NCBI GenBank assembly: GCA_938075585.1
Contig: CALJHG010000047.1
Coordinates: forward strand, 1 to 32,593
Origin: an uncultured Gammaproteobacteria bacterium
GTDB lineage: Bacteria > Pseudomonadota > Gammaproteobacteria > Ga0077536
DNA length: 32,593 nucleotides
Reading direction: 5' to 3'
A model generated the notes under the pieces. That model was given only the letters and a program-made list of their open reading frames with translations. It searched no databases and was not told the origin of the DNA. Below are positions 5,037 through 17,228 of this stretch, piece by piece. How positions within the stretch are numbered: position 1 is the first letter of the stretch; each line of letters begins with the position of its first letter. The position numbers and the translations under genes are program-made.

Positions 5037-6824
5037 TTACCCCGCCGGTGACTTGGAATAAAAGCCTTCAGTATTAGGTTGGCGGATTTTAGCCTTTGCG
5101 ATGAGATCATCGCTCACATCAAACTTATACATTTGATCAGGGCCTATACCTTCATCCTTAAGGCAATCGGCCATATCATCATCAGCTACGGTGAAGCCGG
5201 CTGCATCGTTAAATGCCCACTCATCCTCTAGGCACTGCCAACCGATGTCCGCAATTTGTTCCGATGTTATTTCCTCACCAAAAAATGGGGTAAAGAATTG
5301 TCGAGTTTCATCAATTGTAGGTCCGAGGAACATACAGAAACCGGTCGAGTCACAAATTGCATTAACTATTTGAATTTCCTGGGAAGCGATTACTGCCTCA
5401 TCACCACTAATTTTGGGGTCGATGACTAATCCGGCCGTATGATCCGCGCCCATAGCACTACTAGCATAAGTTATGCCGGTAGCCTTTAAAGGACGAGGGT
5501 CCCAAGCAGGCATAGCCTGACCTTTCGCTACTGGTATCCGGTGATGTTTTCTTTCTGTTCCAATTGCGAGCGCACCATGACCTATATTTTTCCCAAGCTC
5601 GCTCCCTGATGCGAGTTCTTTCCTGAGCAGGTCTTTAGCACCCTCCGCATCTCCCCAAGCCATACCGCCTGAGTCCATATAAACAGCGATAGCTGCTCCA
5701 GTTTCGATGGTGTCCAGCCCTAACTCATCACACAATCTATCGAGGTCTGCCACATCTTCCCAATTATTAATCGCGCAACAGGAACCCAATAGAGTGAGTG
5801 TCTCAAACTCTAAAGCGGATGTTAAATAGTTCCCATCAGCATCATGCACTACGTTGGAGCATTGAACTATACAACCGGTCATACAGTTGTGCATTTCGCC
5901 ACCTCGGGACTCGAAGGACTCTCGAATTCTTGCACCATCGAGTTTTTCAAATTCTGGATTTCTTCCTTCAATTCGATTTTTATAAGGAAAAGTATGGAGC
6001 ATGTTGGCCGCAGGGACTACCGCGCTTGTGCCATATTTGAAATTGCTGTGTCTGCTGGAGAGATAGTCTTTACTGAAATCTTTATTGTACTGAGCATAGG
6101 CTTTTCGATCGACGGGTTTGCGCGTAGCTTTCTTTCCTGGATCAACCAAAACCCATTTAAGGCACTTAGACCCCATAACAGCACCCACTCCTCCACGCGC
6201 CGCTTGGCGAGCAGGTCGCCGATCTTTATCGCTATCCGTGCAGGCGATAGAAGCGCCTTTGAGCATCATTTCTCCAGCAGGACCAATTGAAATTACAGAG
6301 GCTTTATCAGACTCCCCATCCAGCAACTTTTCGCAACAGGCATAGTTCCACATCCCTTTATACTCTGTAGCATCAACCAACTCGGCATTGCCGTCAGAAA
6401 CTCTAAGTCCCCAGAGTTTATTACGATCGACAGGTTGCCCAGTCACAATGACCGCGCGATAACCTATTTTCATGAGGTCTTGTCCAGGATTTCCCCCAGC
6501 ATTTGCTTCCTTAATTCCTCCAGTCAATGGACTTTTACATCCCATCGAGATCCGACCAGAAGTGGGCGCAGATGTTCCACTCATAGTTCCCGGGGCAAAA
6601 ACTAAGACGTTTTCGGGACCTAATGGGTCACATTTTGGGTTACATTCCTCCAGCATTACTTTAGCGGATAAGGCTCGACCACCCAACAATTTCCATTCTT
6701 CCCGAAAGTCTTTAATGGTCACTTTCAGCGTACTCATATCTACGTGTATTGTTTTGTCGTTATCCCAAGCCTGACCCATTTTAAATTGCTCCCAATTTTT
6801 GCTTATGCGCTTAATCGCATTCAT
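5037..6824 (-). CDS. Aldehyde:ferredoxin oxidoreductase (AOR)-family tungstopterin oxidoreductase, YdhV-like
   Basis: 595 aa; LLGGRALSAKVML, NVLVFAPGTMSGTSAPTSGRISMGCKSPLTGGIKEANAGG, CMTGCIVQC, LEFETLTLLGSCCAINNW, CDELGLDTIETG, DSTGFCMFLG. Confidence 0.92.
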   Translation of the reverse strand: MNAIKRISKNWEQFKMGQAWDNDKTIHVDMSTLKVTIKDFREEWKLLGGRALSAKVMLEECNPKCDPLGPENVLVFAPGTMSGTSAPTSGRISMGCKSPLTGGIKEANAGGNPGQDLMKIGYRAVIVTGQPVDRNKLWGLRVSDGNAELVDATEYKGMWNYACCEKLLDGESDKASVISIGPAGEMMLKGASIACTDSDKDRRPARQAARGGVGAVMGSKCLKWVLVDPGKKATRKPVDRKAYAQYNKDFSKDYLSSRHSNFKYGTSAVVPAANMLHTFPYKNRIEGRNPEFEKLDGARIRESFESRGGEMHNCMTGCIVQCSNVVHDADGNYLTSALEFETLTLLGSCCAINNWEDVADLDRLCDELGLDTIETGAAIAVYMDSGGMAWGDAEGAKDLLRKELASGSELGKNIGHGALAIGTERKHHRIPVAKGQAMPAWDPRPLKATGITYASSAMGADHTAGLVIDPKISGDEAVIASQEIQIVNAICDSTGFCMFLGPTIDETRQFFTPFFGEEITSEQIADIGWQCLEDEWAFNDAAGFTVADDDMADCLKDEGIGPDQMYKFDVSDDLIAKAKIRQPNTEGFYSKSPAG

Positions 6825-13294: not shown

Positions 13295-14452
13295 GTGAAG
13301 TTAGATGGTGTCAGAGTTCTAGATTTGTCTCGATTTTTGCCTGGACCTTACATGGGTATGTTGTTAGCAGATCACGGAGCGGAAGTGATAAAAATTGAGC
13401 ATGGCTCTGGCGAGCCTACTCGTTATTTAGGTCCTGAAGTAGAGGGCTTTACCACTTACTTCCGCAACACGCAGAGAGGAAAACTAAGCGTAAAATTAAA
13501 TTTAAAAGAAGACGAAGGGGTTCACATCTTTCTAAAACTGGCTGAAGAAAGTGACATTATCATAGATTCATTTCGACCTGGCGTCGTTGATCGCCTCGGA
13601 ATAGGCTACGAAGTGGTTGCAAAACTAAATCCAGGTATCATCTTTTGTTCTCTATCTGCGTTCGGTCAAACTGGAGATATGTCTCTCAGGCCTTCACACG
13701 ATCTCGGTGCGCAGGCGATCACTGGTGTACTTAGCTTGGGTTCGCGAGGAGCAGATGATACGGCATTGCCAGCTGCGCCGACTGCGGATGTGGCTCTAGG
13801 TTCTCTGGCATTGGTAGGGATCATGATGGCGCTATACAGAAGAGAGAAGAGTGGTCGGGGCGATTATTTGGACATGTCTATGACCGATAGTTTGATGTCG
13901 TGGACGCCTCATATTTTGAGCGAGGTGATTGCTAATAATGCAGCGCCGAACTTAAGCCGCGAACGCCTTTACGGTGGCGCAGCGCTTTATAATATCTATG
14001 CGACATCGGATGGGCGTAGGCTAGTCTTATCAGGATCTGAGATGACTTTTGCTGAAAATTTGTTGAACGCGTTGGGGCGTCCCGATTTAGTACCGTTGTG
14101 TGAGAAACCATGGGGAGACGCCCAAAAGCCTGTAAAGGAATTTTTACAGAAAACGTTTCTTACTAAGACATTATCTCAGTGGCGCGAATGGTTCAGCGAT
14201 CGCAGCGTGTGCTGGGCGCCAGTACTAGAACTGGACGAGGCCTGGGAGCAAAAATTTTTAAGAGACAGAGGAATTATAAGTAAAGGAAAGGATGGCGTTG
14301 AGAGAGTGGGGACTCCAGTGCGCTTTCTTAATGAGCCGGGGACGCCGTCGGATAAGTTGCCGACAGTTGGCGAAGACACGCAGCAAGTACTAGGACTGGT
14401 TGGTTACAATTCCCGCGGTTACTATAGACTAATAGAGAATGGGGTTTGCTGA
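13295..14452 (+). CDS. CaiB/BaiF-family (class III) CoA-transferase, AMACR/formyl-CoA transferase-like
   Basis: 385 aa from GTG; VRVLDLSRFLPGPYMGMLLADHGAEVIKIEHGSGEPTR, GKLSVKLNLK, DIIIDSFRPGVVDRLGIGYE, PSHDLGAQAITGVLSL. Confidence 0.95.
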   Translation: MKLDGVRVLDLSRFLPGPYMGMLLADHGAEVIKIEHGSGEPTRYLGPEVEGFTTYFRNTQRGKLSVKLNLKEDEGVHIFLKLAEESDIIIDSFRPGVVDRLGIGYEVVAKLNPGIIFCSLSAFGQTGDMSLRPSHDLGAQAITGVLSLGSRGADDTALPAAPTADVALGSLALVGIMMALYRREKSGRGDYLDMSMTDSLMSWTPHILSEVIANNAAPNLSRERLYGGAALYNIYATSDGRRLVLSGSEMTFAENLLNALGRPDLVPLCEKPWGDAQKPVKEFLQKTFLTKTLSQWREWFSDRSVCWAPVLELDEAWEQKFLRDRGIISKGKDGVERVGTPVRFLNEPGTPSDKLPTVGEDTQQVLGLVGYNSRGYYRLIENGVC

Positions 14453-14455
14453 AGC

Positions 14456-15520
14456 ATGGACGAAGATAATGACAACCTTTTCGCTGCACAGATCTACGAA
14501 GCAGATAGTTACGATGCGGTACAAGAACGGTGTCACTCCAGTCGCTGGACCGACGGTTTGCCTATCATTCCACCGACCCCTGATCTAGTGCGGAAATTTC
14601 TTGCTGAGGCACTAATACCATCACATCATCTCGTTGGCGTGGAACCGGTAAGAGAACGAGCTATTACAGCTGAGCAACTCGCTATCAATGCAGTCATGGC
14701 TGGTTGCGTGGCGCGACATTTTCCCATTGTAGTAGCTGCGTTCACGGCGATGCTGCAAGATAAATTTGTTTTGCATGGAGCGACCTCTAGTACGGGAGGG
14801 TGCGCGATTTTGGTTGTTATCAATGGGCCGGCTGTTCAGTTCCTAGGTATCGACCCTACTTTTAACGTCCTTGGGTCTAGTGATCGGGCTACTACATGTG
14901 TCGGTCGTGCAATTCGTTTGTCATTACAGAATATTTTAGACGTGCGCCCGGGGGAGGCCGATAGATCGACCTTAGGCCATCCTGGTAAGATAAGCTTTTG
15001 TATGGGCGAGGACGAAGGCAACACTTCATGGTTGCCGCTTGCGCAGGATAGAGGCATCCCTTCAAATACGTCGGCGGTCACGGTGTTTGCCGCTGGCTCG
15101 CCACGTCAGATCATGAATGAATGGACTACTAATCCTGAGGAAATATTAGATACTTATGTCTCCGAAATTAAGGCATCGATGCTCAATTACTCTATTCATT
15201 CAGGTGACTGGGCTATAGTCATTCCTCCTCAATTACGCGCACATTTTGAGCACGCTGGATGGGACAAGCGCCAGATCCGCGAATATGTTAAAAAAAATGC
15301 TTGGGTGATGCGAAAGGATTGGGCGTCGTGTGGTAAGAGGGCCGTTATCGCTAATCAAGGGGAACGCAAGTATTTCGCCTTGAAAAGTATTGATGATCTT
15401 TTAGTCATCGCAGCTGGCGGGCCCGCGGGTGGATTCGGGGCGGTAATACCTCCGTGGTTTGGCAAGACCAGTCGTGCGACTACAATGGCAATCGGAGCGT
15501 GTGTAGACTGCGAGATATAG
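14456..15520 (+). CDS. Protein of unknown function ('WTDGLPIIPPT' family), putative partner of the UGSC selenoprotein
   Basis: 354 aa; SRWTDGLPIIPPTPDLVRKFL, TAEQLAINAVMAGCVARHFPIVVAAFTAML, VVINGPAVQFLGID, RAIRLSLQNI, STLGHPGKISFCMGEDE; ends GACVDCEI (CxxC). Starts 3 nt after the CoA-transferase stop and ends 11 nt before the UGSC gene. Confidence 0.8.
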   Translation: MDEDNDNLFAAQIYEADSYDAVQERCHSSRWTDGLPIIPPTPDLVRKFLAEALIPSHHLVGVEPVRERAITAEQLAINAVMAGCVARHFPIVVAAFTAMLQDKFVLHGATSSTGGCAILVVINGPAVQFLGIDPTFNVLGSSDRATTCVGRAIRLSLQNILDVRPGEADRSTLGHPGKISFCMGEDEGNTSWLPLAQDRGIPSNTSAVTVFAAGSPRQIMNEWTTNPEEILDTYVSEIKASMLNYSIHSGDWAIVIPPQLRAHFEHAGWDKRQIREYVKKNAWVMRKDWASCGKRAVIANQGERKYFALKSIDDLLVIAAGGPAGGFGAVIPPWFGKTSRATTMAIGACVDCEI

Positions 15521-15531
15521 GAGACTGATGT

Positions 15532-16059
15532 ATGTCAATAAAGTTTTTAGATCCGACTTATAAACGTAACATTACGGACTTCACGTATGCTCCAAGATTG
15601 GAGTCTTTCAAGGATTCTGTGGTAGCGATTATTTCTAATGGAAAACGCGGAACCGTTCCATTTTTTGACTGCTTAGAGGCCGAATTAAAGGAGCGCCACC
15701 AAGTAGCAGAGGTGGTTCGTATAATTAAATCTAATTATAGCACCCCTGTAGACAGCCTATTACTGAATGATGCTGAACGTTGGAATGCTATGATTTCAGG
15801 CATTGGCGACTGAGGCAGTTGTTCCTCGTGCAGTCTGCATGATGCGATTATTTGCGAGCGATTGGGCATACCTTCTGTTGGCATCATGACTGAGCCCTTC
15901 GGAAGTGCGGCAGCGTTGATGGGGCGGGTGCTTGGTGCGAGCCAATTAGAGTTTGTGACTATTACCCATCCAATATCGAGCGCATCTGCTAACGATCATA
16001 GTACGCGGTCTCGAATTGCTTGCAGTGAGATTACAAATATTTTGAGTGGGAGCGATTAA
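15532..16059 (+). CDS. UGSC-family selenoprotein; in-frame TGA (15811-15813) read as selenocysteine, residue 94 of 175
   Basis: ORFs 15532..15813 and 15862..16059 are in the same frame, separated only by TGA at 15811. Continuous reading: MSIKFLDPTYKRNITDFTYAPRLESFKDSVVAIISNGKRGTVPFFDCLEAELKERHQVAEVVRIIKSNYSTPVDSLLLNDAERWNAMISGIGD[U]GSCSSCSLHDAIICERLGIPSVGIMTEPFGSAAALMGRVLGASQLEFVTITHPISSASANDHSTRSRIACSEITNILSGSD*. The GIGD[U]GSCSSCS motif is diagnostic; a SECIS-like hairpin follows. Confidence 0.9.
15826..15842 (+). promoter_or_regulatory. Putative bacterial SECIS hairpin for Sec insertion at TGA 15811
   Basis: TCGTGCA-GTC-TGCATGA: 7-bp stem (one G-U pair) with GUC loop. Counting U of UGA as 1, loop G = 23 and U = 24; GUCUGCA spans 23-29. 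Confidence 0.75.
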
Positions 16060-16121
16060 ATTTTTCGCTAATTTGATTAATAGGGGCAAGCAAATGAATG
16101 GTGGGTAGTGGGGAGGAGATG

Positions 16122-17228
16122 ATGGAAAAATATTTTGATGATGGTCACACTCGTGCCAAAGCCTTGAATAATCGTGGTCCGATCAGGTTCGAGAGTGATG
16201 GCACCTTAGGTCGAGATATCTCGGATGCATATTCCGAATATGGTTTTTATATATTTGAGTCTGTGTTAGCTAGTGATGAGCTTGCTGACATCAAAGCTGA
16301 TGTGGAACATATCTTGAATAGAGCTCCGATTAAAAAAGATGCAGAGAACGATCTGAGTGGCAATAGACCGCTAGGTTTCGGGTGCAAAGCTCCGACTTTT
16401 TTCTGGGCGCCGCCTCTCTCTGATCCTTTTGGAGCGACGGACGCAGCCGGAGGCCGACATCCTGTAAAAATGCCAGAGCCTAAAGCCGAGAAAGGGGTTC
16501 CTGACGAAGCGATATTTCTTATATTAGGTTCTTTGCAATTTTCGAATGCGTGTTTACGCGCATACGGACATCCGGAACTTTTAAAAGTGGCAGAGGCTGT
16601 CAACGGCAGTGATTTCACACCGTTTAATGAAGCCTTATTTATCAAGAAGCCCGGAGTAGGGGCATCGGTTGCCTGGCATCAAGATGGTCTGACTCATTGG
16701 GGTAGTGAGGACTTTGACGAAGGGACTCATGGATTTAATTTTATGGCACAACTATATGGAAGTACCGCTCGAAACGGCGTATGGGTCATTCCTGGAACTC
16801 ATCGATTAGGTAAAATGGATATAAAAGAAATGGTTAATGTGGCTGGTACAGAGTATCTCCCAGATGCTGTCCCAATGGTTTGTGGGGCTGGTGATGTAGT
16901 GATCTCTAATAGACAGTTAGTTCATGGATCATTCGCAAATACCAGTAAAGAGGAGCGAGTGACCGTGAATTTTGGTTTTCATAGAAGAAAGTCGGTATTA
17001 GGAGTTAAGGCAGGTGGGGTCCATAATGCCGAGGCTATTTATGATGAAGCTAGGATTTTGAAACGCTCGCAAGTGATTTCTTTGGCTATTAATGCTCGAA
17101 AGCAAAGGTTTCCTCACGAGGAAAGTTTTTGTTACCAACCTTTAGCTAGTTGCGCCGATGATCATCGATGGGATGAAAACACCCTGACAAAGTTAAAGGA
17201 CTATAATTTACTCGATCTGAGCATTTGA
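16122..17228 (+). CDS. Phytanoyl-CoA dioxygenase (PhyH)-family protein
   Basis: ORF track starts at 16098; GGGGAGGAG just before ATGATG suggests a start at 16119/16122. YSEYGFYIFESVLASDELADIKADV, VAWHQDGLTHWG (HxD), GDVVISNRQLVHGSFANTSKEERVTVNFGFHR. Confidence 0.88.
   Translation: MEKYFDDGHTRAKALNNRGPIRFESDGTLGRDISDAYSEYGFYIFESVLASDELADIKADVEHILNRAPIKKDAENDLSGNRPLGFGCKAPTFFWAPPLSDPFGATDAAGGRHPVKMPEPKAEKGVPDEAIFLILGSLQFSNACLRAYGHPELLKVAEAVNGSDFTPFNEALFIKKPGVGASVAWHQDGLTHWGSEDFDEGTHGFNFMAQLYGSTARNGVWVIPGTHRLGKMDIKEMVNVAGTEYLPDAVPMVCGAGDVVISNRQLVHGSFANTSKEERVTVNFGFHRRKSVLGVKAGGVHNAEAIYDEARILKRSQVISLAINARKQRFPHEESFCYQPLASCADDHRWDENTLTKLKDYNLLDLSI

Follow-up and report, generated by a model that had tools for sequence, protein, structure and literature searches.

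A UGSC-family gene read across an in-frame TGA in an uncultured gammaproteobacterium: a predicted selenoprotein with a constant partner gene and a probable distant kinship to the Sec domain of glycine and D-proline reductases

Among the selenoproteins of marine prokaryotes, the UGSC family (Pfam PF24696; NCBIfam NF041046) ranks fifth by count (PMC2398784). It accounts for 8.2% of selenoprotein genes (PMC9402790), and a 2026 review places it among the selenoproteins with largely uncharacterised functions (PMC13188914); in the openly licensed literature we found neither a function nor biochemical data for any member. A thioredoxin-like fold has been suggested for the family, and a fusion to a conserved domain called “Unknown_1” has been published (PMC2398784). 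Two groups of better described selenoproteins invite comparison. The selenoproteins of the thioredoxin fold (Prx-like and Trx-like) share with UGSC the UxxC arrangement, whereas GrdB and PrdB (PF07355), the Sec subunits of the glycine/sarcosine/betaine and D-proline reductases, share with it a Sec-x-x-Cys that has a beta strand in front of it and a helix behind it, the helix leading on to a GIPT/GIPS motif. Thioredoxin genes accompany the glycine/betaine reductase (grd) clusters (PMC4517662, PMC8547467).

Here we describe a UGSC gene in an uncultured marine gammaproteobacterium, within a window (the whole stretch of DNA that was analysed) of 32,593 nucleotides. The features on which the argument depends are the following:

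13295..14452, plus strand: gene for a CaiB/BaiF-type CoA-transferase (PF02515), 3 bp upstream of the partner gene
14456..15520, plus strand: partner protein gene, 354 aa, unannotated, 11 bp upstream of the UGSC gene
15532..16059, plus strand: predicted UGSC selenoprotein gene, 175 aa with the TGA read as Sec; stop TAA at 16057-16059
15811..15813, plus strand: in-frame TGA, predicted Sec94, modelled between beta strand 86-92 and the N-terminus of helix 95-110
15820..15822, plus strand: Cys97 (TGT), the sole other invariant redox residue of the UGSC family (UxxC)
15826..15842, plus strand: bacterial-SECIS-like hairpin, 12 nt after the TGA, with a 7-bp stem (15826-15832 with 15836-15842) and a GUC loop

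The initial annotation of this DNA had proposed that two short ORFs share one frame interrupted only by a TGA at 15811, and that reading through it gives a 175-residue protein with GIGD-U-GSCSSCSLHDA. Both points hold: the ORF 15532..15813 and the one that opens with a TTG at 15862 lie in the same frame (their starts 330 nt apart), the TGA at 15811-15813 is the sole stop before the TAA at 16057-16059, and the read-through product of 175 residues contains the expected stretch, with Sec as residue 94 of the motif U94-G-S-C97. Membership in the UGSC family was likewise confirmed by Pfam PF24696, whose match covers residues 5-172, TGA included (E=3.6e-40; 138.3 bits for a curated cut-off of 25), so that homologues align across the TGA, with Sec or Cys in that column; the NCBIfam equivalog model NF041046 gave 111.8 bits, under its 125-bit cut-off. 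UGSC selenoproteins have been published since 2007-2008, and the gene is therefore a further member of an already known family, which it resembles in its full-length profile match, its motif and its Sec/Cys exchange, and from which it differs in falling below that equivalog cut-off.

Exactly one in-frame TGA is present in all 70 UGSC matches, which come from 31 of the 95 related genomes searched, and both U and C are present in every one of 36 aligned members. The window's genome has a further UGSC paralogue on a different contig, and this one too contains a TGA. The orthologue of a same-genus genome (L067, 89% identical) keeps the TGA, and the dN/dS between the two genes is 0.13 before it and 0.10 after it: both sides are under purifying selection and the downstream half is therefore translated and selected. 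In the same column Cys replaces Sec in Arthrobacter, where the form GDCGSCSSCS that the initial annotation had given for homologues is indeed found, and also in haloarchaea, Roseovarius, Variovorax and two further genomes of the same phylum. Sec coding and Sec/Cys exchange in this family are thus direct outcomes of the comparison, and for the window gene itself a selenoprotein is predicted from the sequence with near certainty.

The machinery for Sec insertion was recovered in large part. On contig C30 of the window's genome, selA (566 bits), selB (418 bits) and a tRNA-Sec with anticodon UCA lie near one another, so that three of the four genes whose presence had been proposed as a check are there; the fourth, selD, did not turn up in the assembly (G000, 92% complete), whose weak TIGR00476 match was rejected as selD, the protein being ThiL-like. 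Three same-genus genomes (G001, G002, G004) do have a selD domain, within open frames of 745-751 aa that, judged from the selD domain alone, fit the Ndh-SelD fusions reported from marine bacteria (PMC2398784). As for the hairpin, it is kept in 14 homologues from three subgroups, with 93.8% of cells paired and two pairs changed on both sides, and as a single window sequence it is no more stable than its shuffles (z -0.3). This ordinary stability and the missing selD are what could be said for reading the TGA as a genuine stop or as an error of sequencing, which would leave a pseudogene or two unrelated ORFs. Against it stand the selA, selB and tRNA-Sec genes, the TGA in 70 of 70 homologues, the selection on both sides of it and the Cys found elsewhere in its column, because of which an error or a pseudogene is excluded for practical purposes at the level of sequence, the whole explanation being barely credible.

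What the initial annotation did not contain is the gene immediately upstream. Neither Pfam nor NCBIfam has a family for its product, and a profile built from its homologues recovers 72 genes in 32 of the 95 related genomes, to be compared with the 31 that have UGSC. For 68 of the 70 UGSC genes the partner is near on the same strand or fused, either upstream or downstream and often with an overlap of a few bases, and all six unpaired genes (two UGSC, four partners) lie at contig ends. The two proteins form a single chain in several genes of genome G006 and in one of G034, and the model of a natural fusion reached a pTM of 0.90. Among 19 plasmid loci with the partner that were examined, UGSC was missing within about 7 kb only in Haladaptatus. 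The partner is thus obligate for UGSC, as pairing and natural fusion both show, and this linkage strongly supports a physical complex: we consider it very probable that UGSC works bound to its partner. The published “Unknown_1” domain may be this same partner.

Residues common to stand-alone and fused partners include D33, G83, G124, G150-R151, N159, E185 and G321, and no Cys is kept across the alignment of both forms. A pyruvoyl role was considered for the partner and is not supported, because it has no match to the pyruvoyl subunit of glycine reductase (PF09338) and the fusions do not conserve its Cys84 and Cys182. A relationship of the partner with PF07355 proteins was also rejected, as was any known fold, Foldseek matching the fusion model no better than weakly (TMq up to 0.19). 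Neither UGSC nor the partner retrieved anything when its sequence was searched against the PDB, no partner was found in phages, and a search of viral contigs with the UGSC profile gave no relative. In the haloarchaeal plasmids L134, L135, L145 and L146, a Cys-form UGSC lies between two partner paralogues (partner-UGSC-partner), an order that suggests a heteromeric complex.

The genes around the pair point in two directions. The first is thioredoxin. A thioredoxin domain with CPTC stands at the N-terminus of the group-B partners, the paralogue elsewhere in the window's genome included; in Arthrobacter the order is trxB-trxA-partner-UGSC; trxB is close to the pair in Variovorax SRS16 and Roseovarius; and genes similar to thioredoxin reductase, under the equivalog cut-off, lie beside it in genome G006, V. 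boronicumulans and Haloterrigena. The linkage of the pair to thioredoxin or thioredoxin reductase therefore recurs in relatives, and it makes recycling of UGSC by thioredoxin likely. No thioredoxin gene was found near the loci of the window's own subgroup (A), which have a CoA-transferase instead, and this is the second direction: all five group-A loci, that of the window included, have CoA-transferase, partner and UGSC in this order, and CaiB-type CoA-transferases are also near the pair in Roseovarius, Natrinema, Halalkalicoccus and Halorientalis. Other genes around the pairs encode TTT or TRAP transporters, a CoA ester lyase, ComA-like enzymes and LysR regulators, and the wider context of the pair is carboxylic-acid catabolism. 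The PhyH gene at 16098-17228 was rejected as a part of the system, not being conserved beside UGSC.

Two UGSC-partner fusions near aconitase X and DUF126 genes, in Vibrio europaeus (L138, 6371-8056) and Sporomusa (L139, 6314-8038), have DMGTS instead of U/C-GSC. Judged by this motif they are a branch that lost the redox pair, so that some branch of the family would function without Sec/Cys chemistry.

How close, then, is UGSC to the Sec domain of the glycine and D-proline reductases? None of the 36 UGSC members has a direct match to PF07355 at E values up to 10. In profile-profile comparisons (hhalign) with the PF07355-type selenoproteins of the same bacterial family, about 70 columns around the Sec align, Sec on Sec, with a probability of 32-52% for shallow alignments and of 91.5-94.9% (E 9e-7 to 5e-8) for a deeper UGSC alignment. 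With Sec and Cys masked the probability is 78-88%, and the controls (reversed, column-shuffled and 21 unrelated families) gave at most 4%. UGSC is therefore probably, as far as profiles can tell, a distant relative of the GrdB/PrdB Sec domain, yet no member of PF07355. Thioredoxin or thioredoxin reductase genes alongside are a shared trait, seen for UGSC in relatives and not beside the window copy. The differences are also clear: UGSC is about half the size, its partner is not a pyruvoyl subunit, and its carriers are marine proteobacteria and haloarchaea, in which CoA-transferases often accompany it. Among the relatives of the window's genome, the loci L052-L066 hold short PF07355 (GrdB/PrdB-type) genes whose frames stop at an in-frame TGA and, read through it, go on as U-P-x-C. 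They look like additional selenoproteins of this bacterial family that a TGA conceals.

From these elements we propose, as the somewhat more probable account, that UGSC forms the catalytic, Sec-bearing subunit of an enzyme with two components, a thioredoxin-recycled reductase similar to GrdB/PrdB with the upstream gene product as its partner. A small substrate, either a carboxylic acid or a CoA-linked compound, would be bound and presented by the partner and attacked by Sec94, which in the modelled flavodoxin/Rossmann-like sandwich sits at the N-terminus of a helix. Cys97 would then resolve the product as a Se-S bridge, to be reduced again by thioredoxin reductase and by thioredoxin, which one subgroup has fused to the partner and others encode next to it. 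Such a scheme would resemble that of the Sec subunits GrdB and PrdB, with which UGSC shares the sequence profile of the Sec region. The best reading of the setting of this thioredoxin-dependent reductase is carboxylic-acid/CoA catabolism. Both the reductase chemistry and the carboxylate or CoA nature of the substrate are inferred, the type of reaction by analogy from the GrdB/PrdB kinship, and a reductive cleavage of the glycine/proline-reductase type is conceivable at somewhat less than even odds. Counting against this account are the lack of a thioredoxin gene by the window copy, the non-pyruvoyl partner, the Vibrio/Sporomusa branch without the Sec/Cys pair, the missing PF07355 match of the window protein and the selD not found in the assembly.

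Two other explanations of the UxxC pair deserve to be weighed against the two-component reductase. The resemblance of UxxC to CxxC, the marine abundance of UGSC and the published Trx-like suggestion would all fit a protein of thioredoxin-like fold with a general antioxidant role, but the AlphaFold2 model of UGSC (pLDDT 91, pTM 0.85) is a flavodoxin/Rossmann-like alpha/beta sandwich in the order of its strands and helices. Its PDB matches are weak and largely to flavodoxin-like or other Rossmann-like proteins, with no thioredoxin among the top 50, and the comparison of the UGSC profile with that of the thioredoxin domain gave 0.5%. Model, PDB search and profile comparison thus agree in rejecting a thioredoxin fold, and the published guess is not supported by the modelled structure. 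Thioredoxin exists, moreover, as a separate domain fused to the partner, and neither the obligate pairing nor the catabolic neighbourhoods suggest a general antioxidant, a role that we hold to be quite improbable. Less easily dismissed, though still unlikely, is a non-redox function, in which a lyase, hydratase or isomerase of carboxylic-acid catabolism would use its Sec or Cys as a nucleophile or to bind a metal, and thioredoxin would just keep that residue reduced. Neighbours such as the CoA-transferases, CoA ester lyase, aconitase X, PEP-mutase-like enzymes and a ComA-like enzyme agree with this possibility, and the Met-form (DMGTS) branch implies that non-redox chemistry is possible; however, a Sec with an invariant resolving Cys and a repeated association with TrxB/Trx is typical of turnover through a Se-S bridge, and the kinship with reductase Sec domains argues in the same direction.

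Beyond the two-component reductase itself, a bolder and clearly tentative extension is that UGSC and its partner represent a new class of two-component, thioredoxin-dependent selenoenzymes, composed of a stand-alone Sec domain of the GrdB/PrdB type and a non-pyruvoyl substrate-binding subunit, which in marine bacteria would cleave a small organic acid reductively and which haloarchaea and soil bacteria would have in its Cys form. If true, chemistry like that of the glycine and proline reductases would extend outside the anaerobic fermenters. Three points go beyond the initial annotation, namely that UGSC has an obligate partner, that the pair is linked to thioredoxin and that UGSC is probably kin to GrdB/PrdB; in the openly licensed literature we found no published account of them. 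UGSC travels constantly with one partner gene and often with thioredoxin genes, and the function of the family therefore becomes testable by co-expression or reconstitution, with the obligate partner, a likely electron donor (thioredoxin) and the closest mechanistic relatives now named.

The window gene is of a kind that standard annotation cuts or splits. Public annotation does so at the TGA in the Paracoccus ferrooxidans plasmid pFER4 (L136, 6435-7004), where selB lies about 4 kb from the UGSC gene, and again in an Acidovorax T1 plasmid (L129, 7992-8483). A large expansion of the family occurs in genome G006 (62% complete, 2.2 Mb; L105-L114), whose 13 UGSC matches lie for the most part in long UGSC-partner frames, several of these with N-termini resembling signal peptides. 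Elsewhere in the window, on the minus strand at 5037-6824, there is a gene of the aldehyde:ferredoxin oxidoreductase type (PF02730/PF01314) that is kept in a neighbouring same-genus contig.
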